Of a DNA stretch of 64,000 nucleotides, positions 33,305 through 64,000 are shown piece after piece. Position numbers and translations under genes: made by a program. The notes beneath the pieces were generated by a model. It searched no databases, was not told the origin of the DNA, and saw only the letters and a program-made list of their open reading frames with translations. Numbering within the stretch: the first letter of the stretch is position 1; each line of letters starts with the position of its first letter. This DNA is from Chryseobacterium herbae (GTDB lineage Bacteria; Bacteroidota; Bacteroidia; Flavobacteriales; Weeksellaceae), in NCBI RefSeq assembly GCF_025154075.1, contig NZ_JAOAMU010000004.1, positions 310,001 to 374,000 on the forward strand. Direction: 5' to 3'.

Positions 33305-33535
33305 ATGTCAATCAATGAATTTATCAAAAATTTTCAGTCTCAACTGGAAAACACAGATACCGTAATAGAACCTGAAACTGTATACAGCCAGGAAAGCTAC
33401 TGGGATTCGCTTACCGCTATGGTGATCAAAGTAATGATCGAAGATGAGTACGGGTTAGATATCGAGCCGGAGCAGATCACTTCGTTCAAAGATATCAACG
33501 AACTTTATTCTTTTATTGTTGAGAAAAAACAGTAA
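33305..33535 (+). CDS. acyl carrier protein (first, dedicated)
   Basis: This 76-residue acidic protein has the phosphopantetheine site WDSL with Ser35. It follows the GNAT gene by 4 nt and precedes the ketoacyl synthase by 10 nt. It is not next to fabF or other fatty-acid genes, so it probably carries a special acyl group for the glycan. Confidence 0.9.
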   Translation: MSINEFIKNFQSQLENTDTVIEPETVYSQESYWDSLTAMVIKVMIEDEYGLDIEPEQITSFKDINELYSFIVEKKQ

Positions 33536-33545
33536 ATATTAAACA

Positions 33546-34514
33546 ATGGCTTTTATAAAACATATTTCAACCTATATTCCTGAGAAGGTTATTTCCAATG
33601 AGGAGATTTCAAAAAAGTTTCCGGACTGGGAAAGTGATAAGATCCTTGAAAAAATAGGCATCAGAAACAGGAACATTACCGGAGATGATGAGTTTACTTC
33701 AGATATTGCTGTAAAAGCGCTCAATAAACTCGTTGAAGAATACCAGATCGATAAATCTTCGATAGATTATCTGATCGTCTGTACCCAAAGTCCTGATTAT
33801 TTCCTTCCTGCAACAGCCTGTATCGTTCAGGCACAAGCCGGGTTAAATACCAGTTGTGGAGCGATAGACATCAATCAGGGATGTTCGGGCTATATTTATG
33901 GATTATCTCTGGCCAATGCTCTTGTTGATTCTAAAATGATGAAGAATGTTGTTTTGATCACCGCAGAAACATATTCAAAACATATTCACGAGAACGATAA
34001 AGGAAATATCAGCCTTTTCGGAGATGCCGCAGCGGCAACCCTGATCTCTGAAGACGGCGATTTTGAAATCCTGAAGTTTTCTGTAGGTACAGATGGAGAA
34101 GGTGCTAAAAACCTGATCGTTAAAAACGGTGCCGTAAGAAACAAAAAAACGGACGACACGCAAGACAAAGACAACTATCTTCACATGAACGGCCCGAAGA
34201 TCTTTGATTTTACCTCAAAAGCCATTCCCGGACTTGTAGAACAAAACCTGAAAATAAACGGCTTTGAAAAAAGTGATATTGACACCTATATCTTTCACCA
34301 AGCCAACACCTTCATGCTCGATTTCTTAAGAAAAAGAATCAATATCCCACAGGAAAATTTCGTCATCGATATGCTAGACTATGGGAATACCGTATCCTCT
34401 ACCATTCCTATTGCCTTTAAAAATTCATTTGCAACAAGAGATTCCAAAAATGTAATGCTTGTTGGTTTTGGTGTGGGCTATTCCTGGGGAGCAGTTTGTT
34501 TAAGAAAAAAATAA
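33546..34514 (+). CDS. 3-oxoacyl-ACP synthase III family protein
   Basis: Family members condense an acyl-CoA primer with malonyl-ACP. The 322-residue protein keeps the catalytic triad: Cys113 in NQGCSGY, His in FHQAN and Asn in DYGNTVSSTIP. With the neighbouring ACP it could make a short 3-oxoacyl chain, the raw material for a hydroxyacyl substituent. No ketoreductase is adjacent, so reduction would have to use the cell's FabG or not occur. A housekeeping FabH role is less likely given the location. Confidence 0.88.
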   Translation: MAFIKHISTYIPEKVISNEEISKKFPDWESDKILEKIGIRNRNITGDDEFTSDIAVKALNKLVEEYQIDKSSIDYLIVCTQSPDYFLPATACIVQAQAGLNTSCGAIDINQGCSGYIYGLSLANALVDSKMMKNVVLITAETYSKHIHENDKGNISLFGDAAAATLISEDGDFEILKFSVGTDGEGAKNLIVKNGAVRNKKTDDTQDKDNYLHMNGPKIFDFTSKAIPGLVEQNLKINGFEKSDIDTYIFHQANTFMLDFLRKRINIPQENFVIDMLDYGNTVSSTIPIAFKNSFATRDSKNVMLVGFGVGYSWGAVCLRKK

Positions 34515-50137: not shown

Positions 50138-51076
50138 ATGATTGAAATCTCTGTTATCATACCTGTTTACAACGCTGCCGAATTTTTGGAAAAGGCCGTT
50201 CATTCTGCCTCACAATTTGACGAAGTAAAAGAAATCATTCTGGCTGAAGACCAATCTACAGATCATTCATTAGAAATCTGCAGAAGGCTGGCTGCGGAAA
50301 TCTCTAAAGTAAAACTCTTTCAGCATCCTAATGGAGAAAATCGTGGTGCCGGTGCCTCAAGAAATCTGGGTATCGATCATGCTACCTCTGAATTTATAGC
50401 ATTCCTCGATGCTGATGATTATTACCTTCCCAATAGATTTGAAGCGGAAAAAGAGCTTTTCAAGGATCCAAAAACTGAAGGCGTTTTTGGCGCGATCGGT
50501 ACAGAATATTTAACCGAAAAAGGGAAACAGGAATTCGAGTCTAAATTCAAGGAAATTTCTTTAAGTACGGTGGAATATCCGGCGGAAGGAGAAGAGGTTT
50601 TCAGGGGACTTTTAAGTTTAACACCTAAAACTTTCGGTACATCATTCCACCTGAATTCACTTACTGTCAGAACAGATTCTCTGAAGCGCAATACTATCCG
50701 CTTTAATGAATCTCTCCGTGTTCATCAGGATTCGGAGCTGATCATCAGGTTGGCTTATCATTGCCACCTGAAAACCGGCATTATCGATAAAGCTATTGCC
50801 ATAAGGGGAATTCATGATGACAACAGAATTACAAAAATCATAAAATACACCCCTCAATATAACCAGAGACAGTTGCTTTTCTGGAAATCCATGAATGACT
50901 GGGCTGTTTCTCAACAGATCGCTCCTGAATACAGAAAGAGAATTTATTTAATTTATAAATCATTTGACTTGTCTTTGAAAAAAGGACTGGCCAAATATGG
51001 AAGCATTTTTCTGGAAACATTAAAAAACCCGGACATACTAAAGACGAAATACCGCTTCACTTACTACAACAGATAA
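50138..51076 (+). CDS. family 2 glycosyltransferase (paralog array, copy 1)
   Basis: The 312-residue protein has ISVIIPVYNAAEFLEKAVHS, AEDQSTDHS, ASRNLGID and the metal site FLDADDYYLPNRF. It is the first of four paralogs (starts 50138, 51079, 53057 and 54089) and is closest to copy 2, with which it shares AIGTE, LT, KGK and the block VHQDSELIIRLAYHCHLK. It is soluble; specificity is unknown. Confidence 0.92.
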   Translation: MIEISVIIPVYNAAEFLEKAVHSASQFDEVKEIILAEDQSTDHSLEICRRLAAEISKVKLFQHPNGENRGAGASRNLGIDHATSEFIAFLDADDYYLPNRFEAEKELFKDPKTEGVFGAIGTEYLTEKGKQEFESKFKEISLSTVEYPAEGEEVFRGLLSLTPKTFGTSFHLNSLTVRTDSLKRNTIRFNESLRVHQDSELIIRLAYHCHLKTGIIDKAIAIRGIHDDNRITKIIKYTPQYNQRQLLFWKSMNDWAVSQQIAPEYRKRIYLIYKSFDLSLKKGLAKYGSIFLETLKNPDILKTKYRFTYYNR

Positions 51077-51078
51077 CC

Positions 51079-52023
51079 ATGGAAATCTCAGTAATCATTC
51101 CTGTATACAACGCGGAAAAATACATTTCCAAAGCCGTGGAGTCCGCCCTGCAGCTGGAGGAAGTAAAGGAAGTGATCCTTATTGAGGACCAGTCTCCGGA
51201 CAATGCGCTTTCAGTATGCCGGGAACTTGCTCAGCAATATGAAAGGGTAAAACTTTTCCAGCATCCGGACAAAGGCAACCATGGTGCAGGAGCCAGCAGA
51301 AACCTTGGTATTGAAAAAGCGACCGGTGATTTCATTGCATTCCTGGATGCCGATGATTATTTTCTTCCCAACAGGTTCAATGTGGAGGGAGAACTTTTTA
51401 ACGACCCTAAAGTAGAAGGTATATTCAATGCCATCGGTACTGAATTTTTAACAGATAAAGGCAAAGAAGAATTTCTATCCAATATCAATGACACCTATCT
51501 GCTGACCGTCAATTATCCTGCGGAAGGTCCTGAAGTTTTTAAAGGATTATTGGGCCAGACTCCAAAAGTATTCGGCACCTTTTTCACGCTGGATGCCCTT
51601 ACGGTGAGAGCGTCTGCCCTTGAGAAAAGCGGTTTAAAATTCAACGAAGATTTACGTGTTCATCAGGATTCGGATTTTATTATCAAGCTGGCCTATCACT
51701 GCTATTTAAAAGCCGGAACTATAGATAAAGCTGTCGCGATAAGAGGTATTCATGATGACAACAGGATTACCAAGATCAAAAAATATTCACCGCAGTATAA
51801 TCAGAGACAGTTTCTTTTCTGGAACTCGCTTTATCAGTGGTCTCAGGTCAACGCATTGGACCAGGATGCAAAACAACATATCAGCCTGCAAAAAAAAGCT
51901 TTTGAGCTTTCTGTAAAAAAAGGATTTTCCAAAGCGAAGACTCTTTTTGCCGCCATTTTTAAAGATCCCAACATTCTGAAAACCAAATACAGATTTACTT
52001 ACACGAATCATGAAACTCAATAA
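51079..52023 (+). CDS. family 2 glycosyltransferase (paralog array, copy 2)
   Basis: The 314-residue protein has ISVIIPVYNAEKYISKAVES, IEDQSPDNA, GAGASRNLGIEKATGDF and FLDADDYFLPNRF. It starts 2 nt after copy 1 and shares AIRGIHDDNRITKI with it. Its 3' end overlaps the acyltransferase gene by 14 nt. Confidence 0.92.
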   Translation: MEISVIIPVYNAEKYISKAVESALQLEEVKEVILIEDQSPDNALSVCRELAQQYERVKLFQHPDKGNHGAGASRNLGIEKATGDFIAFLDADDYFLPNRFNVEGELFNDPKVEGIFNAIGTEFLTDKGKEEFLSNINDTYLLTVNYPAEGPEVFKGLLGQTPKVFGTFFTLDALTVRASALEKSGLKFNEDLRVHQDSDFIIKLAYHCYLKAGTIDKAVAIRGIHDDNRITKIKKYSPQYNQRQFLFWNSLYQWSQVNALDQDAKQHISLQKKAFELSVKKGFSKAKTLFAAIFKDPNILKTKYRFTYTNHETQ

Positions 52024-53008
52024 TTTACAAATATTAAGAGGCATATCTGCTCTGCTGGTGTGCTGTTTTCACTTCAGAGAATATATCAATTTTGAAGATT
52101 TTCCCCTTGGTGATATTCTGTTCAGAAAAGGAAGTATTGGGGTGAGTATCTTTTTTGTGATCAGCGGGTTTATCATGGCGTTTACCACCTTAAAAAAAGA
52201 TTTCAGTATCAATACTTCAAAGGAAATCAAGTTATTCTACAAACGAAGAATCATCAGGATTGTACCCCTTTATTTTCTGCTCTCAGCAGGATGGATGGTC
52301 ATTGGAGGAACGCTGATGTACTATTTTCATGGTGAAGGTCTAAAAAGGTTTATCCATTCCGTTTTATTTCTTCCCCAAAAGGACACGTTCCCTGTACTCT
52401 ACCTGGGATGGTCCCTGAATTATGAAATGTTTTTTTACCTGATATTCGGTCTATCCCTGTTCTTCAAAAAAAACAGATATATTTTTATTTCCCTATTCTT
52501 CATCGCCACCTATATAGCAGGACTTTTATTCCCCACTGAAAATGCTTATCTGAAGATGGTTTCCAGTCACCTCAACTTATATTTTGTGGTGGGAATTCTG
52601 TTTGCCCTTTTACTGGATAAAATTTCTATCAGTAAAATGTGGGCTCTGGTATTGTGTACCGGGGGTATCCTTTTATTTTCAGCATTCTTCTTTGATTTTA
52701 TAGCCATATCAGACAGTGTATTGGTATTATTTGTTGTATCTTTATTCGTGTTATCGTTTTTACTGTTGGATTACACGCTCCACTTCAAAGGGAACAGATT
52801 GCTTATTTTTTTAGGTGATATTTCCTATTCCCTGTATCTTTCACACCCTTTTGTAGAGCTGTTTTTCAGACGATTTAAGGTAGAAGGATATCTCAATATC
52901 CCCTATTTTGTATTAAAATTGATTGTTGTCATCGGCGTTGCCGCATTTTTTTATTATTTTGTAGAGAAAAAAATAACTGAGTATTTAAAGCTTAAACTAA
53001 AAGCTTAG
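52010..53008 (+). CDS. OafA/YrhL-type membrane acyltransferase (acyltransferase 3 family)
   Basis: The 332-residue protein has about ten membrane segments and the N-terminal family motif LRGISALLVCCFHFREY, with the conserved Arg and His. These enzymes transfer acetyl or other acyl groups to surface sugars. The gene lies within the glycosyltransferase paralog array, between copies 2 and 3, and overlaps copy 2 by 14 nt. Confidence 0.9.
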   Translation: MKLNNLQILRGISALLVCCFHFREYINFEDFPLGDILFRKGSIGVSIFFVISGFIMAFTTLKKDFSINTSKEIKLFYKRRIIRIVPLYFLLSAGWMVIGGTLMYYFHGEGLKRFIHSVLFLPQKDTFPVLYLGWSLNYEMFFYLIFGLSLFFKKNRYIFISLFFIATYIAGLLFPTENAYLKMVSSHLNLYFVVGILFALLLDKISISKMWALVLCTGGILLFSAFFFDFIAISDSVLVLFVVSLFVLSFLLLDYTLHFKGNRLLIFLGDISYSLYLSHPFVELFFRRFKVEGYLNIPYFVLKLIVVIGVAAFFYYFVEKKITEYLKLKLKA

Positions 53009-53056
53009 CATCAAGTAATATCCCAAAAAACACAAATTTTATTTTAACTGTTCCCA

Positions 53057-54001
53057 ATGAAAGTATCAGTAATTATTCCCGTATACAATGCGGAGAAATT
53101 TGTGTCTCATGCTGTAGAATCGGCACTTCAGTTTGAAGAAGTTGATGAAGTTATCCTGATTGAGGACCAATCTCCCGACAACGCATTGCAGGTCTGCCAA
53201 CAACTGGCTGAAAAACACGAAAGAGTCAAGCTTTATCAACATCCGGACAAACGTAATCATGGTGCCTCAAGCAGCAGAAATTTAGGTATCGAAAAAGCTA
53301 CCGGAGATTTCATCGCTTTTTTAGATGCTGATGACTATTACCTTCCCAACCGTTTCGATGCGGAAAAAGAACTTTTCAAAAATCCCAAAGTGGAAGGTGT
53401 TTATGGTGCTCTGGGAGTACACTATTATTCTGAAAAAGCCAAGGAACAATATTACAGGATATTCAGGGACAAACTAACTACGGTTTACAAGAAACACCCC
53501 CCGAAAGATCTGTTTTTCGGACAACTCCATATGCTGGGAACATTTGGCCTGTTCAGCATTGATACTTTGACCCTCCGTAGGGAACCTTTAATGAAAAAAA
53601 TGGAGGTGCTTTTCAAAAGCCATTTAAGACTTCATGAAGATACCGAGTTTCTTTTCCGCCTGTCATACTACCTTGATCTGTATCCCGGAAGCATTGACAA
53701 AGCAGTTGCTATACGGGGCGTACACGAACATAACAGAATCACTAAAGTAGATACGCGAGTCATAGATCCTGCTATTTCCAGGGCTTTATTATGGAATGAA
53801 ATCTACCAGTGGGCTCAAGCAGAAGATACGGTTCCCGAAAAAGCAGTCACTCACATCAGAAGAATGCACCGAAGTTTTGAAATAGCCAAAGCTCCCAGAT
53901 TAAAAAAATGGGGAATGGTCGCTAAATATCTGGTCACCGATTACAGAAGTATCAGATCGGGGCTATATAATATCAACTTCAAACGCTCTCTAATTTCTTA
54001 A
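53057..54001 (+). CDS. family 2 glycosyltransferase (paralog array, copy 3)
   Basis: The 314-residue protein has VSVIIPVYNAEKFVSHAVES, IEDQSPDNA and FLDADDYYLPNRF. It is closest to copy 4: both have YGALGVHYY, EKAKEQYY, a KHPPKD or RHPPKD segment, and GLFSID followed by RREP. It lies 48 nt after the acyltransferase. Confidence 0.92.
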   Translation: MKVSVIIPVYNAEKFVSHAVESALQFEEVDEVILIEDQSPDNALQVCQQLAEKHERVKLYQHPDKRNHGASSSRNLGIEKATGDFIAFLDADDYYLPNRFDAEKELFKNPKVEGVYGALGVHYYSEKAKEQYYRIFRDKLTTVYKKHPPKDLFFGQLHMLGTFGLFSIDTLTLRREPLMKKMEVLFKSHLRLHEDTEFLFRLSYYLDLYPGSIDKAVAIRGVHEHNRITKVDTRVIDPAISRALLWNEIYQWAQAEDTVPEKAVTHIRRMHRSFEIAKAPRLKKWGMVAKYLVTDYRSIRSGLYNINFKRSLIS

Positions 54002-54060
54002 CATAATAAAAATTCCGTAACTGCATGGAATTAAAACACCTATAAAATTTCAGACTTCAC

Positions 54061-54068
54061 TATATTTG
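54061..54068 (+). promoter_or_regulatory. possible -7 promoter element before glycosyltransferase copy 4
   Basis: TATATTTG fits TAnnTTTG 20 nt before the ATG, in an 87-nt gap that is long for this operon. No TTG is found at the usual distance. Confidence 0.4.
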
Positions 54069-54088
54069 TTGTTGCTTATTTTAAAAAC

Positions 54089-55030
54089 ATGAAAATCTCA
54101 GTAATCGTGCCTGTTTATAATGCTGAAAGATTTGTTTCCCAAGCCGTAGAATCTGCGCTTCAGTTCGATGATGTGTATGAAGTTATTCTGGTAGAGGATC
54201 AATCTCCTGACAATGCCCTGGAGGTATGTCAGCAGCTTGCTGAAAAGCATGACAGGGTGCGTCTTTACCAGCATCCGGACAAAGGCAACCATGGAGCGGG
54301 ACCCAGCAGAAATCTGGGAATAGAAAAATCTACCGGAGATTTCATTGCGTTCCTTGATGCCGATGACTACTTTCTCCCGAACCGTTTCGATGCAGAAAAG
54401 GAACTTTTTAAAAACCCTGATGTAGAAGGTGTTTATGGAGCTCTCGGAGTACATTATTATACCGAAAAAGCTAAAGAACAGTATTATTCGTTGTTTGAAG
54501 ATAAGCTTGCCACGGTTTACAAAAGACACCCCCCGAAAGATGTTTTTCTCGGCCAGATCCATATGTTGGGAAGCTTTGGACTTTTCAGCATTGATGCGCT
54601 TACCATCCGTAGGGAACCGATGATGAGAAAAATGGAGGTCTTATTCCGAACGACTTTAAGGCTTCACCAGGACACTGATTTTCTTTTCCGTCTCTCTTTC
54701 TACCTTGACCTCTATCCGGGAATTCTGGATGAGGCTGTAGCCGTAAGAGGCGTGCATGAAAATAACCGCATCACTCTGGTAGATTCAAAGAAAATAAATC
54801 CGGCAAGCACAAGGGTTATTTTATGGAAAGAAGTTGAAAACTGGGCCGCCGGTGAAAAAGGAATGCCGGACAATGTCAAACAGCACATCAGCAGAATGCA
54901 TCGCAGCTTCCAGATTGCGAATGCATCCACCGTCAATAAATGGGGCATGATCCTGAAATATCTGGTAACCGATTACAAAAGCATCCGTTCAGGACTTTAT
55001 AATATTAATTTCAGGGACCGCTTATTTTAA
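54089..55030 (+). CDS. family 2 glycosyltransferase (paralog array, copy 4)
   Basis: The 313-residue protein has ISVIVPVYNAERFVSQAVES, VEDQSPDNA, GAGPSRNLGIEKSTGDF and FLDADDYFLPNRF. It is the last gene on the plus strand. Its 3' end overlaps the 3' end of the convergent SGNH-like gene by 9 nt, so no terminator separates the two operons. Confidence 0.92.
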   Translation: MKISVIVPVYNAERFVSQAVESALQFDDVYEVILVEDQSPDNALEVCQQLAEKHDRVRLYQHPDKGNHGAGPSRNLGIEKSTGDFIAFLDADDYFLPNRFDAEKELFKNPDVEGVYGALGVHYYTEKAKEQYYSLFEDKLATVYKRHPPKDVFLGQIHMLGSFGLFSIDALTIRREPMMRKMEVLFRTTLRLHQDTDFLFRLSFYLDLYPGILDEAVAVRGVHENNRITLVDSKKINPASTRVILWKEVENWAAGEKGMPDNVKQHISRMHRSFQIANASTVNKWGMILKYLVTDYKSIRSGLYNINFRDRLF

Positions 55031-55945
55031 TTTTCTCCGTTCTGATTTGATAGAATCTGCGATCTGAGCAGTAAGCACCTTGCTGGATTCTTTATACATA
55101 TGATTTCCGTCTGTATAAACAAAATCATCACAGCGTGCGGAAAAGTCGTAAAATTTAACATCCTTCTTCCTGGAGAGATCTCTCATCAGTCCACTAAATT
55201 CCGGGAACCTCTGGTTTTCAAGATTCATAATATTTTGAGTAGCCGGAATCCGAACCAGATACACAGTTCCTTTTGGTTGCAAATAGTCTATGATCTCATT
55301 AAGCGCTTTCATACGTACCTCAGACAGCTTGTAATCCTTCAGCATAAGTTGATATTCCTGCGTTTTCTTAGCTATTCTGGCGTTTACAGAATCTTTATTC
55401 ATATCAACAGTTACTTCCATCCACCCGTCTTTATGAAGGAATGATTTGGACCTTACTACCGCTTCCCTATCGAGGTATATTCTAAACCAGCTCTTATTTA
55501 AATTTTTAAGAAGGTATTCATAATTGGGAGACATGTTATAAAAGTACATGCTTTTAAATGGCGATTTCTCTTCAGGATAATCTGCTTTAGTGAATACATC
55601 ATTTTTCAAGGACAGATTCCATGGATTTACGGTGAGAATAAAAATTCCGTTTTTGGTATTGGGGTCCAGTTTTCTTTTCAAAGCATTGAGATAGATCTCA
55701 CCATAAGGAGACTGGGCAATGTTCAGTGAGAAATTGTCAAAAGGAGTGGAAAGTTTATTTTTCAAAACTTCTGGGACAATTCCCTGTACACTTCTGGAAT
55801 CCCCTAAAATAATATTCTTCGGTTTCTCTACCGCAAAGTGCATATAGTTATCATCCGTATTGCCGTCTGCATAAGAAGCCAAAAGCATCAGCACAGCCAT
55901 AATTCCGATGATATAGAATGATATTTTAAATAAAAATTTTCCCAT
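55022..55945 (-). CDS. SGNH-like protein paired with MBOAT (DltD/AlgJ-type partner)
   Basis: The 307-residue protein has an N-terminal membrane anchor (residues 4-25) and a periplasmic domain. A GDSRS motif lies near residue 48, and DGNH near the C terminus supplies the DxxH dyad of SGNH-type O-acyl transferases and esterases. Proteins of this kind work with MBOAT partners in alginate, peptidoglycan and teichoic acid acylation. It starts 1 nt after the MBOAT gene and closes the FkbH operon, so it probably completes transfer of the acyl group to the surface glycan. Confidence 0.8.
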   Translation of the reverse strand: MGKFLFKISFYIIGIMAVLMLLASYADGNTDDNYMHFAVEKPKNIILGDSRSVQGIVPEVLKNKLSTPFDNFSLNIAQSPYGEIYLNALKRKLDPNTKNGIFILTVNPWNLSLKNDVFTKADYPEEKSPFKSMYFYNMSPNYEYLLKNLNKSWFRIYLDREAVVRSKSFLHKDGWMEVTVDMNKDSVNARIAKKTQEYQLMLKDYKLSEVRMKALNEIIDYLQPKGTVYLVRIPATQNIMNLENQRFPEFSGLMRDLSRKKDVKFYDFSARCDDFVYTDGNHMYKESSKVLTAQIADSIKSERRKLK

Positions 55946-55946
55946 A

Positions 55947-57359
55947 TTAAAACTGTTCGTAAATAAAGCTACCGTTGGAAAATACTCCGTAATACATGAT
56001 CAGGAAGATCAGAAAAACATACATGGCTCTTCTCACCAAAGGATTCAGTCTTTTGATATCAAGCCCGTGTTCCTGGTCTTTGTTGATCCAGTCAAATAAA
56101 ATAACGATGGCTATTAAACCTAAAATCTTAATTTTAATGAATTGTGGGATTGAAAAAAGCGATAAACTGAAGATCTTTCCATACATCCCAAAAGCCTCCT
56201 TTAGATTGGGAGCTACAAATAAAATTAAAGCAAAACATACCAAAGCCATGGTATATAGAATATTACCTAATTCTTTGAATGTCGGAATAGTTTTAGATAA
56301 TTTTTTCTTTTTATTAATCTGATTATTAACGACCAAAGGAATATAATACAACCCTTGTAGTGCGCCATAGCAGATAAACGTCCAGTTGGCACCATGCCAG
56401 AACCCTATGATGACAAAATTGAGAAATACAGCGAGCAGCAACCCCTTTTTATCGTAATCACGAAAAGCAATGACCAAAGGGGTAAATACATATTCCGTAA
56501 GCCATGAGGTCAGAGAAATATGCCATTTTCTCCAGTAGTCAGCGATATTCTGAGCAAAAAGAGGGAAGGCAAAGTTTTTGGTCGTTTTGAAACCTAAAAG
56601 TTTGGCAAAACCTATGGCCATATCTGAATATCCTGAAAAATCCGCATACATCTGAAAAAGGAAAAGTATAGCCCCAAAAGCAACAGTACTCCCGGAAAGA
56701 TATTCGTAATTGGCAAAAATATTTTGAGTTATAGGAGCAATTGTATTGGAAACAACTAATTTTTTAAAGGCTCCCAATAAAATTTGTCTTGCTGCATCCG
56801 AGCCGTTTTCTAACGTAAAAACTCTTTCTTTTTTAAGCTGGGGAAGCAGTAATCCACCTTTATCAATAGGTCCGGAGGTCATGCTTGGAAAAAAAGAAAT
56901 GTAATTAAAGAACGCCAAAGCATCGGTCTCAGCTTTCAGTTTATTATTCTTGATATCAATGAGATAGCTTATCATTCTGAACGTATAAAAACTGATCCCC
57001 AGCGGCAGAATGATTTTTAATGTCAGATCATTTTCAATTCCAAACAGGTCGGTAAAAGATTCAATAAAGAAATTAAAATATTTAAAATATAACAATGTTC
57101 CGACAGAAAAAATTAAACCGAGATTGACCCAAAGCTTTGTCTTAGGCCCTTTTTCAGCAATTTTTAATCCCAGAAAATAAACGATAGCAGAACTTCCTAT
57201 CAAAAGTGCGAGAAATCTCCAGTCCCAGTACGCATAAAAGATATAGCTTGCCAGCAACAGAAATATATTTTGTGCTTTAAGATTTTTCCCTAAAACCCAC
57301 CAATACATGGCGAAAAAAAGTGAGAAGAAAAGCACAAATATTAATGAGGTAAACTGCAT
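55947..57359 (-). CDS. MBOAT-family membrane O-acyltransferase
   Basis: The 470-residue protein has ten or more membrane segments and the MBOAT hallmarks PLGISFYTFRMISYLID, FFPSMTSGPID, FQMYADFSGYSDMAIG, DYWRKWHISLTSW and the catalytic His in FWHGANWTF. Such proteins carry an acyl group from a cytoplasmic carrier across the membrane to a polysaccharide; DltB uses an ACP-bound acyl. Here an ACP gene lies two genes upstream, in the same operon, which suggests an acyl-ACP donor. Confidence 0.93.
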   Translation of the reverse strand: MQFTSLIFVLFFSLFFAMYWWVLGKNLKAQNIFLLLASYIFYAYWDWRFLALLIGSSAIVYFLGLKIAEKGPKTKLWVNLGLIFSVGTLLYFKYFNFFIESFTDLFGIENDLTLKIILPLGISFYTFRMISYLIDIKNNKLKAETDALAFFNYISFFPSMTSGPIDKGGLLLPQLKKERVFTLENGSDAARQILLGAFKKLVVSNTIAPITQNIFANYEYLSGSTVAFGAILFLFQMYADFSGYSDMAIGFAKLLGFKTTKNFAFPLFAQNIADYWRKWHISLTSWLTEYVFTPLVIAFRDYDKKGLLLAVFLNFVIIGFWHGANWTFICYGALQGLYYIPLVVNNQINKKKKLSKTIPTFKELGNILYTMALVCFALILFVAPNLKEAFGMYGKIFSLSLFSIPQFIKIKILGLIAIVILFDWINKDQEHGLDIKRLNPLVRRAMYVFLIFLIMYYGVFSNGSFIYEQF

Positions 57360-57361
57360 CG

Positions 57362-57742
57362 TCAGTTACTGTTTAAAAGTTCAATAATTCCATAAGAAAG
57401 CATTAAAAAAGCGACCTTTCTGTTATTGAAAAGTATGGCTTCTTTAGGCGGTGAGATCAGCATTCCTCCTTTTTCCGTAAGGTCTTCTATTGTGGCTTCA
57501 ATATCTTCCACTTCATAACAGATGTGGTAGTATGAAATTCTTTTTTTCAAAAGATTTTCTACCGGTTTTCCGGAAACAAGCTCAATATTAAGACCGTCTT
57601 CAACCGTAATCATGCATAATTCCGCTTCCTGCTTCGGGTCAAAAACAACCGGAGTTTCTTCTATGATCGTGTGCAGCTTTCTGATATTCTGGAGTTCTGC
57701 CTGTATATCCTTACAGGCCACTCCAATGTGGTGAAACTTCAT
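57362..57742 (-). CDS. VOC/glyoxalase-fold protein (methylmalonyl-CoA epimerase-like)
   Basis: The 126-residue protein has the full metal-ligand pattern of VOC enzymes: His in FHHIGVA, Glu in NIELVSG, His in YYHICYEV and Glu in IIELLN. It is one domain half-pair of the methylmalonyl-CoA epimerase type. In this operon, next to ACP and methyltransferase genes, it could epimerise or otherwise modify the ACP-bound acyl group. Its start overlaps the ACP stop by 1 nt, so the two are tightly coupled. The exact reaction is unknown. Confidence 0.8.
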   Translation of the reverse strand: MKFHHIGVACKDIQAELQNIRKLHTIIEETPVVFDPKQEAELCMITVEDGLNIELVSGKPVENLLKKRISYYHICYEVEDIEATIEDLTEKGGMLISPPKEAILFNNRKVAFLMLSYGIIELLNSN

Positions 57743-57981
57743 TACAGCTTTGCAGCAACAGAGTCTGCCATTTCTCCTACATTATTCCAGGTCTGGATTT
57801 CAGAAGAAGTGAAACGAATTCCAAAAGCTCTTTCCACGGCTACAATGAGTTGGATATGAGAAAGTGAATCCCATTCTTCCACATCATTGGCTGTAGTTTC
57901 AGCAGTTAAAGTAATTTCTTCGTTGTCTAATTCTTCACGGAAAATTTCTGACAGTTTTGATAAAATTTCGTTCTTATTCAT
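57742..57981 (-). CDS. acyl carrier protein (second, dedicated)
   Basis: This 79-residue acidic protein has the phosphopantetheine site EWDSLSH with Ser39, then IQLIVAVERAFGIRF. It lies in the FkbH operon and is only distantly like the ACP at 33305. In FkbH systems the enzyme loads a glyceryl group derived from 1,3-bisphosphoglycerate onto such a carrier. Confidence 0.92.
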   Translation of the reverse strand: MNKNEILSKLSEIFREELDNEEITLTAETTANDVEEWDSLSHIQLIVAVERAFGIRFTSSEIQTWNNVGEMADSVAAKL

Positions 57982-57986
57982 AGTGC

Positions 57987-58892
57987 TTAAATATTTTTTA
58001 TTTTTAAAAATGATGCATACATCGTTGCAATCTTTCTTTTTTCTGCTTTTTCCAGATCGACATCTTCACTTACAAAATAGCTTTCACTAACGATCTCCAA
58101 ACCTGCTTCATCAATCAAATCTCTGATTTCCTGAATAGTGTTAAACAGATAGATATGATCCATTGAAGGAGCATTGGTAGGCGTTGTAATAAAGATCGTT
58201 CCTTCCGGTTTTATTAAGTTTTTGATTTTCTTTAGTAATGATAAAGGATCTTCTACATGCTCCAAAACCTCACCCATCGTAATAAAATCCTTCTTTTCAT
58301 CATCATTATAATCGAATACATTTTTAAGATGATAAAGAACTTTATCGCTTTTTATAAGACTTTTGGTAAGGGCAAGTGAAGATTCACTGATATCCAGTGC
58401 TTCAAAAGTACAGTCGTCCCCAATATTTTCCATCGCTGCCTCAAAATACAAACCGTGTCCAGCACCGATTTCAAGATATGTTTTTATGGGCGTATACTTT
58501 CGAATATTGTTTTTAAAATACTGATAAACGGCATAATGATGTCTCCAAAGGAATTGTGAAAGCAATAGCCCGTGCATATGAGAAACCATCACATCAGGAT
58601 TGTTGTACATGGCCTTATTTACATCATCAAATGAGGTGTTTCTATACTTTCCGGTTCTCACGAAATCCAGCATTTCTTCATTGAAATCACCAATCATTTT
58701 AAGATAATAATTGATAGAATCATCAAAAGTGAGGTTTTCTTTTTCAAGAATGCCTTTATACTTATTGATAAAAACAGTATAGTCGGATATATAATTTTCT
58801 TCTTCTTTCAGTAAAGAAAAGTTCTTTTGAAGCTTTTTACCATGAATGGCATTTTTAGCTGCAATTTCTTCAATTAGCTGTTCTATTTTCAT
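57987..58892 (-). CDS. SAM-dependent class I methyltransferase
   Basis: The 301-residue protein has motif I YLEIGAGHGLYFEAA near residue 138, the acidic FEALDISE loop, and the later MGEVLEHVEDPLSLL and GTIFITTPTN segments. An extra N-terminal helical region of ~130 residues precedes the Rossmann domain. It overlaps fkbH-like by 4 nt and precedes the ACP by 5 nt, so its substrate may be the glyceryl-ACP, giving an O-methylglyceryl group; methylation of a sugar is the alternative. Confidence 0.85.
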   Translation of the reverse strand: MKIEQLIEEIAAKNAIHGKKLQKNFSLLKEEENYISDYTVFINKYKGILEKENLTFDDSINYYLKMIGDFNEEMLDFVRTGKYRNTSFDDVNKAMYNNPDVMVSHMHGLLLSQFLWRHHYAVYQYFKNNIRKYTPIKTYLEIGAGHGLYFEAAMENIGDDCTFEALDISESSLALTKSLIKSDKVLYHLKNVFDYNDDEKKDFITMGEVLEHVEDPLSLLKKIKNLIKPEGTIFITTPTNAPSMDHIYLFNTIQEIRDLIDEAGLEIVSESYFVSEDVDLEKAEKRKIATMYASFLKIKNI

Positions 58893-60616
58893 AGGTTGGG
58901 ATGTATAAAAACCTCTTTAGTTTGATAGTCATTTACGTTTAAAATCCATTGATCTTCCTTAGCTGAAAACCCCAGTCTTTCATAATGATCTTTTACCATC
59001 TGGTTTTTGGCGGTCGGGAGATATTCTCCAACTACATATTGATACCCGTTTTTTCTCGCTGTTTCTACGATCGTGTTCAGGGTAAAGTCTTCCATTCCTC
59101 TTTTCAGGACCCGACAGCTCATCAGCCATGTATCGATAAACAGAGTTTCCGGAGTTTTCTTTTCCAGAACGATCACGCAGATCAGGCCGTTGTCTCCATA
59201 TTTATCTTTCAGGGTGAATGAGATGGTATAATGGTCATCTGAATGGATCACATGGTCTACATCCTGTTCCGTATATCTAATTGTTCTCAGATTAAACTGG
59301 TTGGAACGCTGGGTCAGCTGTGAAACTCTTGGTTTTGAAAAATTGTCGAATGCTTTTACATCAGAAGTCATATTCATGCTCTTCAGAAAATCTTCCACAT
59401 TGGTAAAACTGTCCAGATCCACTGCTCTTTGTGCTTCTACCTGGTATTGTTTCGTTCTTTCGGCATCATTTTCTGAGAAACTTGCTGTTTCGAAAAGATT
59501 CAAACCATATAAATACTCGAGATATCCGGCCGGATCTTCCGGTAATTCAGGAACGCAAACCTCAGGAAGGTTTTCTCTTACAATATTTCTTTCAAACGGG
59601 TTGTCATCCAGAAAAACCATAGAATCAAATCCTATATTCAGGATGCTTTGGATTTTTCTGATATTATCCGCTTTGTTATCCCAATTGGCCACGAAAACAG
59701 CAATATCATCCATTTTAAGAACCATATCCGGATGTTTTTCGAATGGCTCTCTGGCTTTATCTTCATCATTTTTACTGCACACGGCAAGAATCACACCTCT
59801 TTTCTGAAGAGCCTTGATCCAGTACTGAAACTCAGTAAATGCTTTTCCAATGCCCAGGCTTCCTATCTGTATTTTTTCCAGTCCGTCATCCCCGATGATT
59901 CCACCCCAGGTGGTATTGTCCAGATCCAGGATCAGACATTTCTTAAATTTCCCTTCCAGAGAGGAAATAATTCCGGTAACATGATGCGCTACAATCGGTA
60001 GTGCGTCCAGTGAAAGCACCATTTCGGTGTTCACATAGATACTTGGTGAGAACATAAAGTCCCGTCCCCATTTATTTTGAATCGAAAGCAGATCTGCAAT
60101 AAAGAAATTATCATGATGAACAGCAATCTGTGAAGAAAGCAGATAATTCAGTTTATTCAGTTGGAAAACAAAGGAAGATTCTACCTTACAGGCAAAGTTT
60201 CCAAAAACCTGATTGTCTATTCCCGGAAAATTACAGTAGACCACTCTACTTTTGGTTCTGTTTTGAATCGTGCGGTACAGATCCTCAATATAGGAGATTT
60301 TCTGTTCTGCGAAAGCAATCTGTGAATCGTATGATTTATAATATTGACTTAATAATTTATGAGTAGATTCAAAGACGATGGTATAATCTGCATTGAACTC
60401 ATAATACTCTGAGGAAGGATCTAAGATCTGTCTTGAAATTTGTCCGAAATCTGCCTCAAAAATTTCAAATTCAAAACCTTCATGCACAGCGGTTCCTCTC
60501 AAAGCTACATTGAGAAACTGTGTGGCGGTGTCGCCCAGTAATGCGATTTTGATCTTCTTAAGCTGAGGAATTTCTCTGCGGAGTACTTTTTTCAGTTCCG
60601 AAAACGTTTTGTACAT
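58889..60616 (-). CDS. FkbH-like HAD-IIIC family protein, probable glyceryl-ACP synthase
   Basis: The 575-residue protein has the three-part FkbH layout. An N-terminal SGNH-like region begins IKIALLGDTATQFLN. The central HAD domain has LDLDNTTWGGIIGDDG near residue 228, VCSKND and the VFLDDNPFER motif. A C-terminal GNAT-like domain has YGDNGLICVIVLEKK. FkbH enzymes take 1,3-bisphosphoglycerate, dephosphorylate it and load a glyceryl unit onto an ACP; they are known from polyketide extender-unit pathways. It is the first gene of the six-gene operon. Confidence 0.9.
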   Translation of the reverse strand: MYKTFSELKKVLRREIPQLKKIKIALLGDTATQFLNVALRGTAVHEGFEFEIFEADFGQISRQILDPSSEYYEFNADYTIVFESTHKLLSQYYKSYDSQIAFAEQKISYIEDLYRTIQNRTKSRVVYCNFPGIDNQVFGNFACKVESSFVFQLNKLNYLLSSQIAVHHDNFFIADLLSIQNKWGRDFMFSPSIYVNTEMVLSLDALPIVAHHVTGIISSLEGKFKKCLILDLDNTTWGGIIGDDGLEKIQIGSLGIGKAFTEFQYWIKALQKRGVILAVCSKNDEDKAREPFEKHPDMVLKMDDIAVFVANWDNKADNIRKIQSILNIGFDSMVFLDDNPFERNIVRENLPEVCVPELPEDPAGYLEYLYGLNLFETASFSENDAERTKQYQVEAQRAVDLDSFTNVEDFLKSMNMTSDVKAFDNFSKPRVSQLTQRSNQFNLRTIRYTEQDVDHVIHSDDHYTISFTLKDKYGDNGLICVIVLEKKTPETLFIDTWLMSCRVLKRGMEDFTLNTIVETARKNGYQYVVGEYLPTAKNQMVKDHYERLGFSAKEDQWILNVNDYQTKEVFIHPNL

Positions 60617-60769
60617 AGATTCTTTTATTTTATTAAAATATGAATGTACCGCCTTCCAATTCTGTCAGTTGTTTATTGTTCGTTTTACAGGTCTCCCGAA
60701 GTCCGGGATTTTCACTGTCTCTATAAGTAGTGGGAACGTTTGTCATTTTTTCTTTGTGTTGTTTGGTTA

Positions 60770-60777
60770 CAAAAATA
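60770..60777 (-). promoter_or_regulatory. possible promoter element of the FkbH operon
   Basis: TATTTTTG on the minus strand fits TAnnTTTG, in the 167-nt gap upstream of the FkbH gene. No TTG is at the usual distance. A start here would give a leader of about 145 nt containing a small hairpin (TCCCG/CGGGA, about 60692-60706). Confidence 0.45.
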
Positions 60778-60783
60778 AAGATT

Positions 60784-61812
60784 TTATCTGATATTTACTT
60801 TTTTAAGATAATCTCTGAGCGGTTTTTCGATAAATTGATAAAACACCATCGAAGTAATAATCAAAACGACCAGATAAATCCAGAATACGCTGTTAATATC
60901 CAACTTATAATTCTGCCCTTTAAGAACTTCTCTGAGGATATACAGGACAGGAATATGGGTAATATAAACTGCATAGCTCGCTTCGCCCAAATATTCCAGC
61001 GGTTTTAATGAAAACAGCCGGGTCACCAATCCGTTATTCCATGAAAGTAAAATAATAAGCGGAATAAACAGTACTGCCATCAATCCGTTGTGATAAAAAA
61101 GAGGAACAAAGATCAGGGCGAACATGATGGCTGCAAAGATCAGAATCACCGGAATGTCGTAGTTTTTCTGCTTAAAACGCTTCACAAAAAACAGTCCGGC
61201 AAGGTTTCCTACTAAAAATTCACTCACATGCATCAGCGGGAAATAATACAGAAACTCGTGGCTTTCTGTGTGAGGTCCTTTATAAGAAGGTGAACCGACA
61301 TAAAGATGGGAAAATACCTGCGTAAGGATCCATAAAGCAATACCAGCCACCCAGATACTTTTATTTTTTTTGGAATAGAAATAATTATAAAGCAACGGAA
61401 AGATCAGATAAAACAGAAACTCTACAGAGATAGACCATCCCGGAAAATTTAAGATCATCGCTTTCCCTGGAATCCAGCTTTGCAGGCCGAACAGATACAG
61501 AAAGCCTTTGTCGATACTGAAATTTGAATATCTGGTCACCAGATAAAGCAGCAATCCCAGCACATAGAGCGGATAGATCCGCGCAAATCTATTTCTGTAA
61601 TACTCAAGATAACCGATCTTTTCTTTCTTGTGATAAGCCACAATCATGATAAATCCCGAAAGGATAAAAAAGTAACTTACCCCCACATTCGCTTTCAAAA
61701 AGATATCTGCGATATAGTCTGTTTTATAAACGAACATATCTTTGTTAAAATGAGAAATAACAATGGCGATGGCTGCAAGAAATCGGGTAAAGGTAATCTG
61801 GTTGATCTTCAT
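60784..61812 (-). CDS. OafA/YrhL-type membrane acyltransferase (acyltransferase 3 family)
   Basis: The 342-residue protein has about ten membrane segments and the N-terminal motif FTRFLAAIAIVISHFNKDM with the conserved Arg and His. FFILSGFIMIVAYHKKEK and EYYRNRFARIYPLYVLGL are also typical of the family. It probably transfers acetyl or a related acyl group to the polysaccharide. It follows the second SGNH-like gene by 38 nt and may be co-transcribed with the upstream MBOAT. Confidence 0.9.
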   Translation of the reverse strand: MKINQITFTRFLAAIAIVISHFNKDMFVYKTDYIADIFLKANVGVSYFFILSGFIMIVAYHKKEKIGYLEYYRNRFARIYPLYVLGLLLYLVTRYSNFSIDKGFLYLFGLQSWIPGKAMILNFPGWSISVEFLFYLIFPLLYNYFYSKKNKSIWVAGIALWILTQVFSHLYVGSPSYKGPHTESHEFLYYFPLMHVSEFLVGNLAGLFFVKRFKQKNYDIPVILIFAAIMFALIFVPLFYHNGLMAVLFIPLIILLSWNNGLVTRLFSLKPLEYLGEASYAVYITHIPVLYILREVLKGQNYKLDINSVFWIYLVVLIITSMVFYQFIEKPLRDYLKKVNIR

Positions 61813-61850
61813 TCATCAAAGCTGTTCAACAGCGTTTATCGTTTTAGCTT

Positions 61851-62816
61851 CTATTTTTTTTCCAACACATTTTTCAGAAGAGGAACTAATTCCGTTGAAA
61901 GAATTTTTGATCCTTTTTCATTTAAATGTCCATAATCCCATCGGTTTTCATACAGATAAAACTCAGGGTATTCTTCCGGATCGACAAGACTTATAACTGG
62001 AACTTTGAATGCGTTCCGGTAGGCCAGAAGCTTTTTAGCATCAGGTTCCGCTGGTCCGGGAATCAACATGATCAGCTCAATATTTCTTTTTGTACACTGA
62101 TCGGCAAGTTCATTGATTTTTTCAACCAAAGCTTTATTCGGGCTGTGTTTTTTATCATCTGCATAATAGCGATTCAATCTGTCTTTAATGACGTTTTTAA
62201 GTGTCTTTTCTTCTGTTCTTGGAACTTTACTGTATTCCAATGCTGAAAAACCCTGGTTTTTGTAGATAGAGCTATTGTAGTTGTCCTCAACAGCTTTTTC
62301 GTCACAATGCTTATTAAAACGAAAAACATTCAGAACAAATGAAGCCCACGCCAGACCCACCTGTTTGTAGTTGCCATTGTCTGCCTGAAATTGAGCTGCA
62401 AAAAGAGTATTTTCATAATTAAAAGCACCAAAACTCCGTTCTGTTTTCAGATTCAGCTTGGTGATATTGATTTTATCCTGAAGTTCAAGAACAATATATT
62501 TCGGTTTAAAAGAAGGATCTTCAAGTACAGATGTAAGGGTTTGGAAATTTTCCAGATTGAAGCTTGCATTAGCGCCTAAATTGTAGGATTTTAAACCTTG
62601 AATGTGTTCATCAATCAACTGGCAGTCGATCTGGTTATTGATCTTTGAGCTTCCGATGAAATAAAGATTGTATTCCGGATGTTTTTTTAAATATTCTTTT
62701 TTCGCGTTTAAAAACGGATAGGAATAATTGCTGTTTGGGCTCAGAGCAAGCTTTATCAGGCCAATAACAAATAGTATGGCGACAAACAAAGACAATATGG
62801 AAAGAAATCTTTTCAT
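61851..62816 (-). CDS. second SGNH-like membrane-anchored protein paired with MBOAT
   Basis: The 321-residue protein has an N-terminal membrane segment (residues 4-25). Near residue 55 is a GSSKI motif in the place of GDS, and the C-terminal WDYGHLNEKGSK contains the DxxH dyad. It is the partner of the MBOAT gene that ends just before its start. The altered GSS motif differs from the first SGNH-like protein's GDS, so the two pairs may act on different acyl groups or sugars. Confidence 0.78.
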   Translation of the reverse strand: MKRFLSILSLFVAILFVIGLIKLALSPNSNYSYPFLNAKKEYLKKHPEYNLYFIGSSKINNQIDCQLIDEHIQGLKSYNLGANASFNLENFQTLTSVLEDPSFKPKYIVLELQDKINITKLNLKTERSFGAFNYENTLFAAQFQADNGNYKQVGLAWASFVLNVFRFNKHCDEKAVEDNYNSSIYKNQGFSALEYSKVPRTEEKTLKNVIKDRLNRYYADDKKHSPNKALVEKINELADQCTKRNIELIMLIPGPAEPDAKKLLAYRNAFKVPVISLVDPEEYPEFYLYENRWDYGHLNEKGSKILSTELVPLLKNVLEKK

Positions 62817-64000
62817 TTAAAACTGAAAATATATAAATTCATTACTCCCGAAATTGGCAAAATTCAAAGTAAGATAGGCTACTACAATATAAATAACCGC
62901 CTGAATCCACCATTTCCTTTCCTGAATTTTCAATCCGTAATCGTGGGTTCGGTTCATCCATTCCATTCCAAGCATAAAAATAATCAATCCTGCTAAAACA
63001 GGGTGAAATGCAGTGGGAAACGAAAATAAACTTTGACTGAAAATTCCTTTAATATATCCTATCGCGTCCGAAACACTGGCTGCGCGGAAGAAAATCCAGG
63101 CAAAGCAGGTCAGTGCAAAAGTGATCAGAATGCTGAAAACCTCCCTGAACGAGGGAATGATCTTACCCATCGCTACTACTTCCAGATGATGTCTGTTTTT
63201 TTCAGCTATCAGTAACGGAAGGAAAAACAGAGCGTTCAAACCGCCCCAAATAATGAAAGTCCAGTTGGCGCCATGCCAGAAACCGCTTACGAGAAAGATG
63301 ATAAAAGTATTTCTGATCTTCATCCACAATCCACCCTTGCTTCCTCCTAAAGGGATATACAGATAATCTCTGAACCATGAAGAAAGTGAAATATGCCATC
63401 TTCTCCAGAACTCCGCAATGTCTCTCGAAAAATACGGATAAGAAAAGTTTTTTAATAATTCAATACCAAATAATCTGGAGGTTCCCAACGCAATATCTGA
63501 ATATCCAGAGAAATCCCCATAAATCTGGAATGCAAAAAGAACCGCTCCCAGCACAAGATTGCTGGCACTTTCCGTATGGTAATTGGTAAATATTTCGTTG
63601 ACAATCGGAGCACAGTTATCAGCAATCACCATCTTCTTAAAAAATCCCCAAAGAATCTGCGCCATCCCGTCTTTTGCTCTTTCATAATCAAAAGATCTTT
63701 TACGCTGGATCTGGGGAAGAAGGTGTGTGGCCCTTTCAATAGGTCCAGCAACCAATAACGGGAAATAGCTTACAAAAACCGCATAATCTACATAGTTTCT
63801 CTCTGCAGGAATTCTTTTTTTATACACATCAATAACGTAAGACAAGCCATGGAATGTATAGAAGGAAATACCCACCGGTAAAATCACTTTTAGCATCCAC
63901 ATATTGACCCCGAACCCGAATGTTTTCAATAATTCAGCAAAATTCTCAATGAAGAAATTGTAATATTTAAAGAATCCCAGAAATCCGAGATTGATCCCGA
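62817..64000 (-). CDS. second MBOAT-family membrane O-acyltransferase (5' partial, cut by window end)
   Basis: The frame is open to the last base of the window; the visible ~394 residues begin with INLGFLGFFKYYNFFIENF, as in MBOAT proteins, so the true start lies outside. Hallmarks are VGISFYTFHGLSYVIDVYKK, FPLLVAGPIERATHLLP, FQIYGDFSGYSDIALG, EFWRRWHISLSSWFRDYLYI and the catalytic His in FWHGANWTF. The SGNH-like gene follows immediately. It is clearly different from the first MBOAT and closer to the alginate or peptidoglycan acetylation type. Confidence 0.93.
   Translation of the reverse strand, partial: GINLGFLGFFKYYNFFIENFAELLKTFGFGVNMWMLKVILPVGISFYTFHGLSYVIDVYKKRIPAERNYVDYAVFVSYFPLLVAGPIERATHLLPQIQRKRSFDYERAKDGMAQILWGFFKKMVIADNCAPIVNEIFTNYHTESASNLVLGAVLFAFQIYGDFSGYSDIALGTSRLFGIELLKNFSYPYFSRDIAEFWRRWHISLSSWFRDYLYIPLGGSKGGLWMKIRNTFIIFLVSGFWHGANWTFIIWGGLNALFFLPLLIAEKNRHHLEVVAMGKIIPSFREVFSILITFALTCFAWIFFRAASVSDAIGYIKGIFSQSLFSFPTAFHPVLAGLIIFMLGMEWMNRTHDYGLKIQERKWWIQAVIYIVVAYLTLNFANFGSNEFIYFQF

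Follow-up and report, generated by a model that had tools for sequence, protein, structure and literature searches.

Six tightly packed genes in a 64,000-nucleotide stretch of Chryseobacterium herbae DNA (contig NZ_JAOAMU010000004.1, positions 310,001 to 374,000; this whole stretch is called the window) fairly probably encode a carrier-protein-dependent system that acylates a surface glycan. The system would be Dlt-like, its acyl carrier protein (ACP) would be loaded by an FkbH enzyme, and in the window it would install an O-methylglyceryl group. We favor a Dlt-like system with FkbH in the place of DltA as the best reading because of the gene order, the docking-site and shuttle sequences of the MBOAT acyltransferase, and the SGNH fold of its partner. 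The identity of the acyl group and that of the acceptor glycan are the parts that we infer. The six co-directional genes lie in the order FkbH-MT-ACP-VOC-MBOAT-SGNH (MT, methyltransferase), with intergenic gaps of -4, +5, -1, +2, and +1 bp, as follows.

58889-60616, minus strand: FkbH loader, a HAD-IIIC phosphatase with a C-terminal part and an N-terminal FkbH_N (TIGR01686, FkbH_N)
57987-58892, minus strand: class I S-adenosylmethionine-dependent MT with a helical N-terminal part (Methyltransf_23 PF13489, E 1e-16)
57742-57981, minus strand: ACP (PP-binding PF00550, E 4e-8)
57362-57742, minus strand: VOC protein of the glyoxalase/methylmalonyl-CoA-epimerase fold (Glyoxalase_4 PF13669, E 7e-16)
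55947-57359, minus strand: MBOAT acyltransferase (PF03062, E 2e-18)
55022-55945, minus strand: membrane-anchored SGNH acyltransferase partner (predicted SGNH fold, no Pfam match)

By these profile matches, the family assignments of FkbH, MT, ACP, VOC, and MBOAT are firm. An earlier reading made from the sequence only had named the six packed genes, their families, and their order, and the coordinates, the gaps, the profile matches, and the SGNH fold model confirm it there. It had drawn the operon out to 60777, which is no gene boundary: FkbH starts at 60616, and its open frame of 591 codons is too short to take in most of 60617-60777. The gap between FkbH and the next upstream gene is 167 bp. 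Scanning for promoters and terminators gave counts close to those of shuffled sequences (24 versus 20.3, s.d. 5.0, and 4 versus 3.9, respectively).

FkbH scored 305 bits against TIGR01686 (curated cut-off, 146.65) and 233 bits against FkbH_N, and its nearest PDB entry is 3slr, B. fragilis BF1531 (E 6e-152). The HAD DxD residues D231 and D233, which we take to be catalytic, and C227, C280, and C501 are kept in all 81 aligned rows. The ACP carries its phosphopantetheine serine at S39 within a DSL motif present in 80/80 rows, and it matches the DltC model weakly (18.5 bits; cut-off, 68). FkbH proteins load a glyceryl group from 1,3-bisphosphoglycerate onto a carrier, and their known roles lie in polyketide and non-ribosomal peptide (NRPS) pathways, according to the accessible parts of two papers (PMC7489565, PMC8949500). 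Membership in this family would make the acyl group loaded here a glycerate derivative.

Putative carrier docking, acyl shuttle, and the SGNH partner

The MBOAT aligned with the DltB chains 6bug and 8jem at E values of about 5e-29 and scored 161 bits against the DltB equivalog TIGR04091 (cut-off, 375). On these scores, the protein is homologous to DltB but is not DltB. Its catalytic His322 is kept in 71 of 74 rows. In the Dlt system, DltC contacts Met302, Val305, Ile306, and Met309 on helix HC of DltB, as given in the accessible text of PMC11035591. In our alignment, the segment PLVIAF of the window MBOAT falls on RLVIVL of DltB, so placed that LVI lies on Leu304-Ile306 and both proteins have Val-Ile at 305/306.

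As a control, we looked for MBOATs in 118 Bacteroidota genomes with the Pfam family, found them in 48, and read 72 of them; a same-strand ACP gene no more than 2.5 kb away counted as an ACP neighbor. Left out were the FkbH-linked MBOAT of the window, short matches in the genomes G147 and G169, and L251 (no matching frame above 200 aa), and MBOATs of 200 aa or less were not counted for the docking site. A Gly-Gly pair occupied the DltB 305/306 position in 60 of the 64 MBOATs without an ACP neighbor, whereas none of the eight with one had it (Fisher p = 4e-8 if rows are independent). The ACP neighbor of one of these eight (L250), a domain match inside a frame of 607 codons at a distance of 0.9 kb, is less secure than those of the other seven. 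Among 89 MBOATs found in FkbH loci, 61 directly after an ACP were counted as non-Gly-Gly (60 of them readable, L121 ending before the site), one directly after an ACP (L116) was Gly-Gly, 20 others were Gly-Gly, and 7 were non-Gly-Gly without standing directly after an ACP by the rule used.

In a FastTree tree of 159 MBOATs, built after removing the docking columns from all but the two alphaproteobacterial rows, ACP adjacency changed eight times and the docking site ten times. A second, quick FastTree tree with long branches, from which most Chryseobacterium MBOATs and those shorter than 300 aa were left out, suggests that the carrier-type MBOATs are not one clade and leaves the placement of DltB unsure. 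Taken as a sequence pattern, the docking site fits DltB and almost every row, with too few independent events for significance.

The C-terminus of the window MBOAT reads FIYEQF. PatA auto-acetylates the tyrosine within its FXYXXF motif at the C-terminus, and outside Dlt the MBOAT-SGNH pathways have no carrier protein and are held to use acyl-CoA (accessible text of PMC12148441). Among 61 FkbH-adjacent MBOATs, the motif was FXYXXF in 51 and YIYxQF in 6, and 4 were truncated or fragments. Since FIYEQF ends the MBOAT and an ACP gene accompanies it, the system, as read from its sequence, joins a Dlt-type carrier with a Pat-type fused shuttle.

The model of the sixth protein (pLDDT 83) had PatB 7trr as its best Foldseek match (E 5e-4). 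Against DltD 6o93, it gave Z 11.8 and a root-mean-square deviation of 5.0 over 240 residues, a Z shared with many other SGNH proteins. The residues S50 (64/64 rows), D279 (60/64), and H282 (64/64) make up its catalytic set. The predicted structure thus has the SGNH fold, like PatB and DltD.

Put together, the favored reading proposes the following route. FkbH would take D-1,3-bisphosphoglycerate, remove the phosphate, and, as its family suggests, put D-glyceryl on the pantetheine of the dedicated ACP. On the carrier, the VOC protein would epimerize C2 and the MT would methylate a hydroxyl, giving O-methylglyceryl-ACP. The loaded ACP would dock on a cytoplasmic helix of the MBOAT, and the acyl group would move to the tyrosine of the FIYEQF shuttle, two steps that the docking and shuttle sequences support. 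From the shuttle, it would pass to the serine of the membrane-anchored SGNH protein and end as an ester on the exported glycan in the periplasm. The most likely acceptor would be the product of the adjacent ABC-transporter polysaccharide cluster. Other species swap the remodeling genes and so would probably present other C3 acids, such as lactyl made through a MaoC-type dehydratase and a short-chain dehydrogenase/reductase (SDR).

Recurrence of the locus and its exchangeable cassettes

Searching genomes for FkbH-ACP-MBOAT neighborhoods, as had been suggested for the locus, we found that the arrangement recurs across genera and in Alphaproteobacteria. One scan of named genomes gave 118 confirmed relatives, of which we read the best 80 as FkbH loci, a set that leans to close relatives; each locus was taken as the same-strand run after FkbH with gaps below 250 bp. 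The run held an ACP in 77 loci, an MBOAT in 59, an SGNH protein in 47, a VOC protein in 29, a MaoC-type dehydratase in 23, an MT in 22, and a FabG-like SDR in 17. FkbH above the cut-off was present in 16 of 59 genomes of the relatives search and in 28 of 395 of a phylum sample that included the window's genome and was taken irrespective of MBOAT.

On plasmids, the search gave 119 matching records (40 from Sinorhizobium), six of which were examined. One S. meliloti pSymB reads VOC-MBOAT-SGNH-like-ACP-FkbH, and one Rhodobacteraceae plasmid reads ACP-FkbH-MBOAT-SGNH-like-VOC; the SGNH-like genes were recognized by motifs read by eye, and both MBOATs are non-Gly-Gly at the docking site. A Paroceanicella plasmid has ACP-FkbH-MT-VOC with no MBOAT in the stretch shown. 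A Rahnella plasmid has FkbH followed by MaoC and SDR, the MaoC match (23 bits) being under the Pfam cut-off of 27.

The genes between the loader and the MBOAT vary as sets. VOC and MaoC never co-occurred in the 80 loci (29 and 23 singly; p = 4e-6, relatedness ignored). A VOC gene accompanied the MT in 16 of its 22 loci, and SDR stood alongside MaoC in 20 of 23. One locus had VOC+SDR and another MT+MaoC+SDR, and in the phylum sample 3 of 27 FkbH neighborhoods had a MaoC-SDR fusion. Presumed catalytic residues were fully conserved in both enzymes (MaoC D29/N31/H34 in 23/23; SDR Y147/K151 in 21/21). On a tree of 78 of the 80 FkbH proteins (those below 500 aa left out), the cassette label needs 33 changes versus 43.6 in shuffles, and the well-supported branches alone force 2 to 9 changes per cassette label. 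From the 33 changes, it follows that the cassettes (none, VOC, MT+VOC, MaoC+SDR) have, on the sequence evidence, been swapped many times, including between close Chryseobacterium species.

Each cassette can be given a conditional product. With no cassette, the group would stay D-glyceryl; VOC would give its C2-epimerized form and MT an O-methylated one; MaoC would dehydrate it to enol-pyruvyl/pyruvyl, and SDR would probably reduce this to lactyl. For the MT, the model (pLDDT 92) matched class I methyltransferases, among them the alpha-keto-acid methyltransferases MrsA and SgvM, and the fold searches named no specific acceptor. An assignment as UbiG or BioC was set aside, the scores being below the cut-offs. 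It is plausible that the MT methylates the ACP-bound acyl group, most likely by O-methylation. The VOC protein, nearest to 2qh0 and 3hdp in the PDB, keeps H5, E54, and H73 in 30/30 rows and E121 in 29/30, which we take to be its metal ligands. An assignment as a true methylmalonyl-CoA epimerase was set aside (TIGR03081, 34 bits versus a cut-off of 114.95), and we propose that it is a C2 epimerase of the acyl-ACP.

The MBOAT active site follows the cassette in 36 Chryseobacterium/Halpernia loci. After the catalytic His, these read GANWT in 10/10 MT+VOC loci, GAEWH in 11/11 without a cassette, and G[PA][RK]xT in 15/15 with MaoC or with VOC only. The pattern suggests an MBOAT tuned to its acyl group, among loci that are related to one another.

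Several single loci depart from the common layout. In L072 (Chryseobacterium defluvii S00151; L263 is apparently the same contig), a tailoring-free ACP-MBOAT-SGNH set stands directly upstream of FkbH-ACP-MaoC-SDR-MBOAT-SGNH, so that one visible FkbH accompanies two tandem carrier-fed sets. In two Treponema loci (L105, L107), the genes after FkbH-ACP-MaoC encode an aldo/keto reductase, a transketolase split into halves, and an MBOAT (by Pfam in L105), possibly a longer acyl-building cassette. The FkbH loci of Ulvibacterium (L097, by Pfam) and Candidatus Symbiothrix (L106, by similarity; also with VOC) carry downstream genes for a ketoacyl synthase III and another ACP, which suggests chain extension of the FkbH-derived unit. 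L079 and L127 encode a conserved protein of 441 aa between the FkbH and ACP genes, and neither Pfam nor NCBIfam matched the copy in L079.

Weighing the favored reading

The Dlt analogy drawn in the sequence-only reading stood in its DltB-type docking segment, its FXYXXF shuttle, its SGNH fold, and its conserved gene set. It had missed two things: most FkbH genes in the phylum have no MBOAT beside them, and MT/VOC is one of several swappable cassettes.

A number of results weigh against our interpretation. Among the 27 other FkbH proteins of the phylum sample, 4 had an ACP and an MBOAT within 6 kb, 11 had an ACP without an MBOAT, 2 had a ketosynthase, and 10 had none of these; at least two of those four (L262, L263) appear to be the same as L065 and L072 of the 80. 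SGNH was unrecognized in the run of 33 of the 80 loci, some of them on short contigs. Seven of the eight ACP-linked MBOATs of the control sample form one clade, belonging to a different GDSL-AMP-ligase-ACP-MBOAT system. Four sampled MBOATs without an ACP neighbor also lack Gly-Gly (L199 was counted as non-Gly-Gly), and the L116 MBOAT is Gly-Gly in spite of standing directly after an ACP. When relatedness was counted, eight independent pairs gave about 3.5 in the expected direction, 0.3 in the opposite one, and 4.3 with no difference (median p = 0.25, not significant). VOC-only and MaoC loci have the same MBOAT active-site type, which would not be expected of VOC as a plain epimerase. Outside Chryseobacterium/Halpernia, the active site does not track the cassette, GANWT occurring in 16 of 28 loci under four different cassettes. 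A GT2/GT4-like frame was not found, with limited queries, in the fetched flanks of 33 of the 80 loci. On account of the non-significant tree-aware test, we slightly lowered our confidence in the Dlt-like reading, which we still hold to be fairly probable.

Two of these results feed alternatives that we consider unlikely, to a similar degree. In the first, the machinery is Dlt-like and the final acyl group is another one, VOC and MT performing, for example, elimination/tautomerization to pyruvyl and C-methylation. The shared G[PA][RK]xT of the VOC-only (4/4) and MaoC (11/11) loci in Chryseobacterium/Halpernia looks as if their products were alike, and the MT fold, with MrsA and SgvM among its matches, leaves the acceptor atom open. 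Against this, the SDR needed for lactyl is missing in 28 of 29 VOC loci, and the VOC protein retains an epimerase/glyoxalase-type ligand set.

The second concerns the acceptor, which would be a protein O-glycan, lipid A, peptidoglycan, or a glycolipid instead of the adjacent polysaccharide. It draws on the 33 loci lacking a glycosyltransferase-like frame within the fetched flanks and on PatAB, a related MBOAT-SGNH pair that acts on peptidoglycan (PMC12148441, accessible text). However, an ABC exporter, nucleotide-sugar genes, and glycosyltransferases share the operon's region in the window, and glycosyltransferase-like frames were seen near 47 of the 80 loci.

A third alternative divides the operon: a unit of glyceryl or methoxy type from FkbH and ACP would go into a polyketide or another small molecule, and MBOAT-SGNH would separately acetylate a glycan from acetyl-CoA. 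We regard it as highly improbable, and the non-significance of the docking association once relatedness is counted led us to raise it slightly. The known polyketide/NRPS roles of FkbH (accessible parts of PMC7489565 and PMC8949500) are in its favor, as is a polyketide synthase (PKS)-type frame on another contig of the genome. Opposed to it are a contig without any PF00109 ketosynthase closer to the operon than 100 kb, the recurring FkbH-ACP-MBOAT adjacency across genera and in Alphaproteobacteria, and a window MBOAT without the Gly-Gly segment of 60 of the 64 sampled carrier-less MBOATs. The sequence-only reading had seen no polyketide synthase; this holds near the operon, the nearest PF00109 ketosynthase on the contig being more than 100 kb off, and fails for the genome, where a 2368-codon ketosynthase-matching frame lies on another contig. 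Two ketoacyl-synthase-III genes are nearer than 100 kb, one in the window (33546-34514) and the other about 8 kb upstream, beyond the window end. A PKS-linked FkbH was set aside, as the genome has no second FkbH (its single FkbH match is at the operon) and no PF00109 ketosynthase within 100 kb of it. Chance adjacency of the six genes is very unlikely because the gene set, kept in 80 loci, is conserved across genera and phyla, and it was set aside.

Known systems and genomic setting

Like Dlt (DltA-DltB-DltC-DltD-DltX, teichoic acid D-alanylation), the favored FkbH-fed glycan acylation system has a dedicated carrier, an MBOAT with a putative hydrophobic docking segment, a tyrosine shuttle, and an SGNH partner. 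Unlike Dlt, whose loader is the ATP-dependent ligase DltA, it has the HAD-type FkbH, which would act on 1,3-bisphosphoglycerate, with no AMP-binding protein among the six genes. Its shuttle (FIYEQF) is fused to the MBOAT, where Dlt has a separate DltX; the six genes leave no room for one between them, and no search for DltX was made beyond the operon. It has additional on-carrier remodeling enzymes, and its Gram-negative host is expected to have no teichoic acid. Because it lacks DltA, scores below the DltB equivalog cut-off, and has no separate DltX within the operon, we do not count it as a Dlt member and class it instead as a carrier-fed MBOAT-SGNH system whose loader and tailoring cassettes are new.

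PatA-PatB and the alginate and cellulose acetylation pairs share with it an MBOAT having its own C-terminal FXYXXF and an SGNH protein in Gram-negatives. Those pairs are carrier-less and held to use acyl-CoA (PMC12148441, accessible text), whereas the present operon has an ACP gene and a non-Gly-Gly docking segment. FkbH/ACP units of polyketides (tetronates, methoxymalonyl-ACP) share FkbH and a free-standing ACP, and methoxymalonyl pathways also share an O-methyltransferase acting on the ACP-bound unit (PMC7489565, accessible text). Here, by contrast, no ketosynthase or dehydrogenase is in the operon, and the acyl-ACP is predicted to reach a membrane acyltransferase.

A comparable layout is seen in a set of Bacteroidota loci (L228, L231, L234, L237, L240, L241, L245) with an ACP beside a non-Gly-Gly MBOAT and a 537-577-codon gene before the ACP. 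By Pfam, this gene is an AMP-binding ligase in L228, where a GDSL gene precedes it, and a GDSL gene was also found in L237; the other loci were assigned by gene length. These loci share the ACP-MBOAT arrangement and, where checked, the GDSL gene, and differ in loading by an AMP-binding ligase, as in Dlt, instead of FkbH. Their gene order is Dlt-like, in Gram-negatives, as far as the sequences tell.

In the literature covered, we found no link of FkbH with MBOAT and polysaccharide, of FkbH with O-antigen, or of HAD-IIIC phosphatase with MBOAT; subscription papers and patents were outside that scope, so the absence is unproven. A query for FkbH with exopolysaccharide matched a work that, by its title and the start of its abstract, presents a bioinformatics method. 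L-Glycerate is an ester substituent of gellan (accessible text of PMC9104527). Native gellan gum of Sphingomonas thus shares a glycerate ester on an exported polysaccharide, and an epimerase would be required to reach its L form once D-glyceryl had been loaded. That D-glyceryl from glycolysis plus an epimerase yields the L-glycerate of gellan is offered as an idea only. Biosynthetic genes for gellan glyceryl transfer were not found in the accessible parts of the literature, within the same scope. A patent reportedly names fkbH for gellan. The gene atrB was set aside as a gellan acyltransferase candidate, since the accessible text of PMC9197254 describes the AtrB protein from a sphingan strain as a type-I-secretion-like transporter.

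More doubtfully than the Dlt-like reading itself, we suggest that FkbH-ACP-MBOAT-SGNH may be a modular Gram-negative platform for surface-glycan acylation fed by glycolytic 1,3-bisphosphoglycerate. Cassettes would set D-glyceryl, L-glyceryl, O-methylglyceryl, or lactyl, and the docking segment would separate carrier-fed from CoA-fed MBOATs across bacteria; the tree-aware result took our confidence in this a little lower still. If true, it would be a Gram-negative exception drawing its acyl group from glycolysis without an ATP-dependent ligase. It would also supply a genetic basis for placing glycerate, methylglycerate, and lactate esters on bacterial glycans, and a type of route that is a candidate for making the L-glycerate found in gellan. 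The docking site would become a sequence rule for predicting carrier-fed versus CoA-fed MBOATs in any genome, for which a wider sample is needed.

The genome measures 5.13 Mb, and its nearest named relatives are Chryseobacterium. At 28-38 kb of the window are genes for a UDP-sugar dehydrogenase, a GDP-mannose-dehydratase-type enzyme, a nucleotidyltransferase, a GNAT enzyme, a ketoacyl synthase III, a DegT aminotransferase, and an ABC-2 permease/ATPase pair, followed by several GT2 genes; we infer a set that fits an ABC-exported polysaccharide cluster. In the same region (33401-34514), a second small ACP (open frame of about 88 codons) adjoins the ketoacyl synthase III, the GNAT gene (32773-33300), and the DegT aminotransferase, possibly a group in which a carrier-bound acyl serves amino-sugar N-acylation.

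Upstream of the operon on the same strand, 60784-63998 holds an acyltransferase-3 gene, a gene judged SGNH-like from motifs read by eye, and, truncated at the window end, a second MBOAT gene (62817-63998), which is of the Gly-Gly type. These genes are probably a separate CoA-fed acylation system beside the carrier-fed one. About 3-5 kb upstream of the second MBOAT, past the window end (L150, G000:C8:373000-386000), lie an SDR, an ACP, and a ketoacyl-synthase-III gene. At 50138-55030, four alike GT2-looking genes (50138, 51079, 53057, 54089) surround an acyltransferase-like gene (52010); their starts are closely similar, and they look like duplicates.

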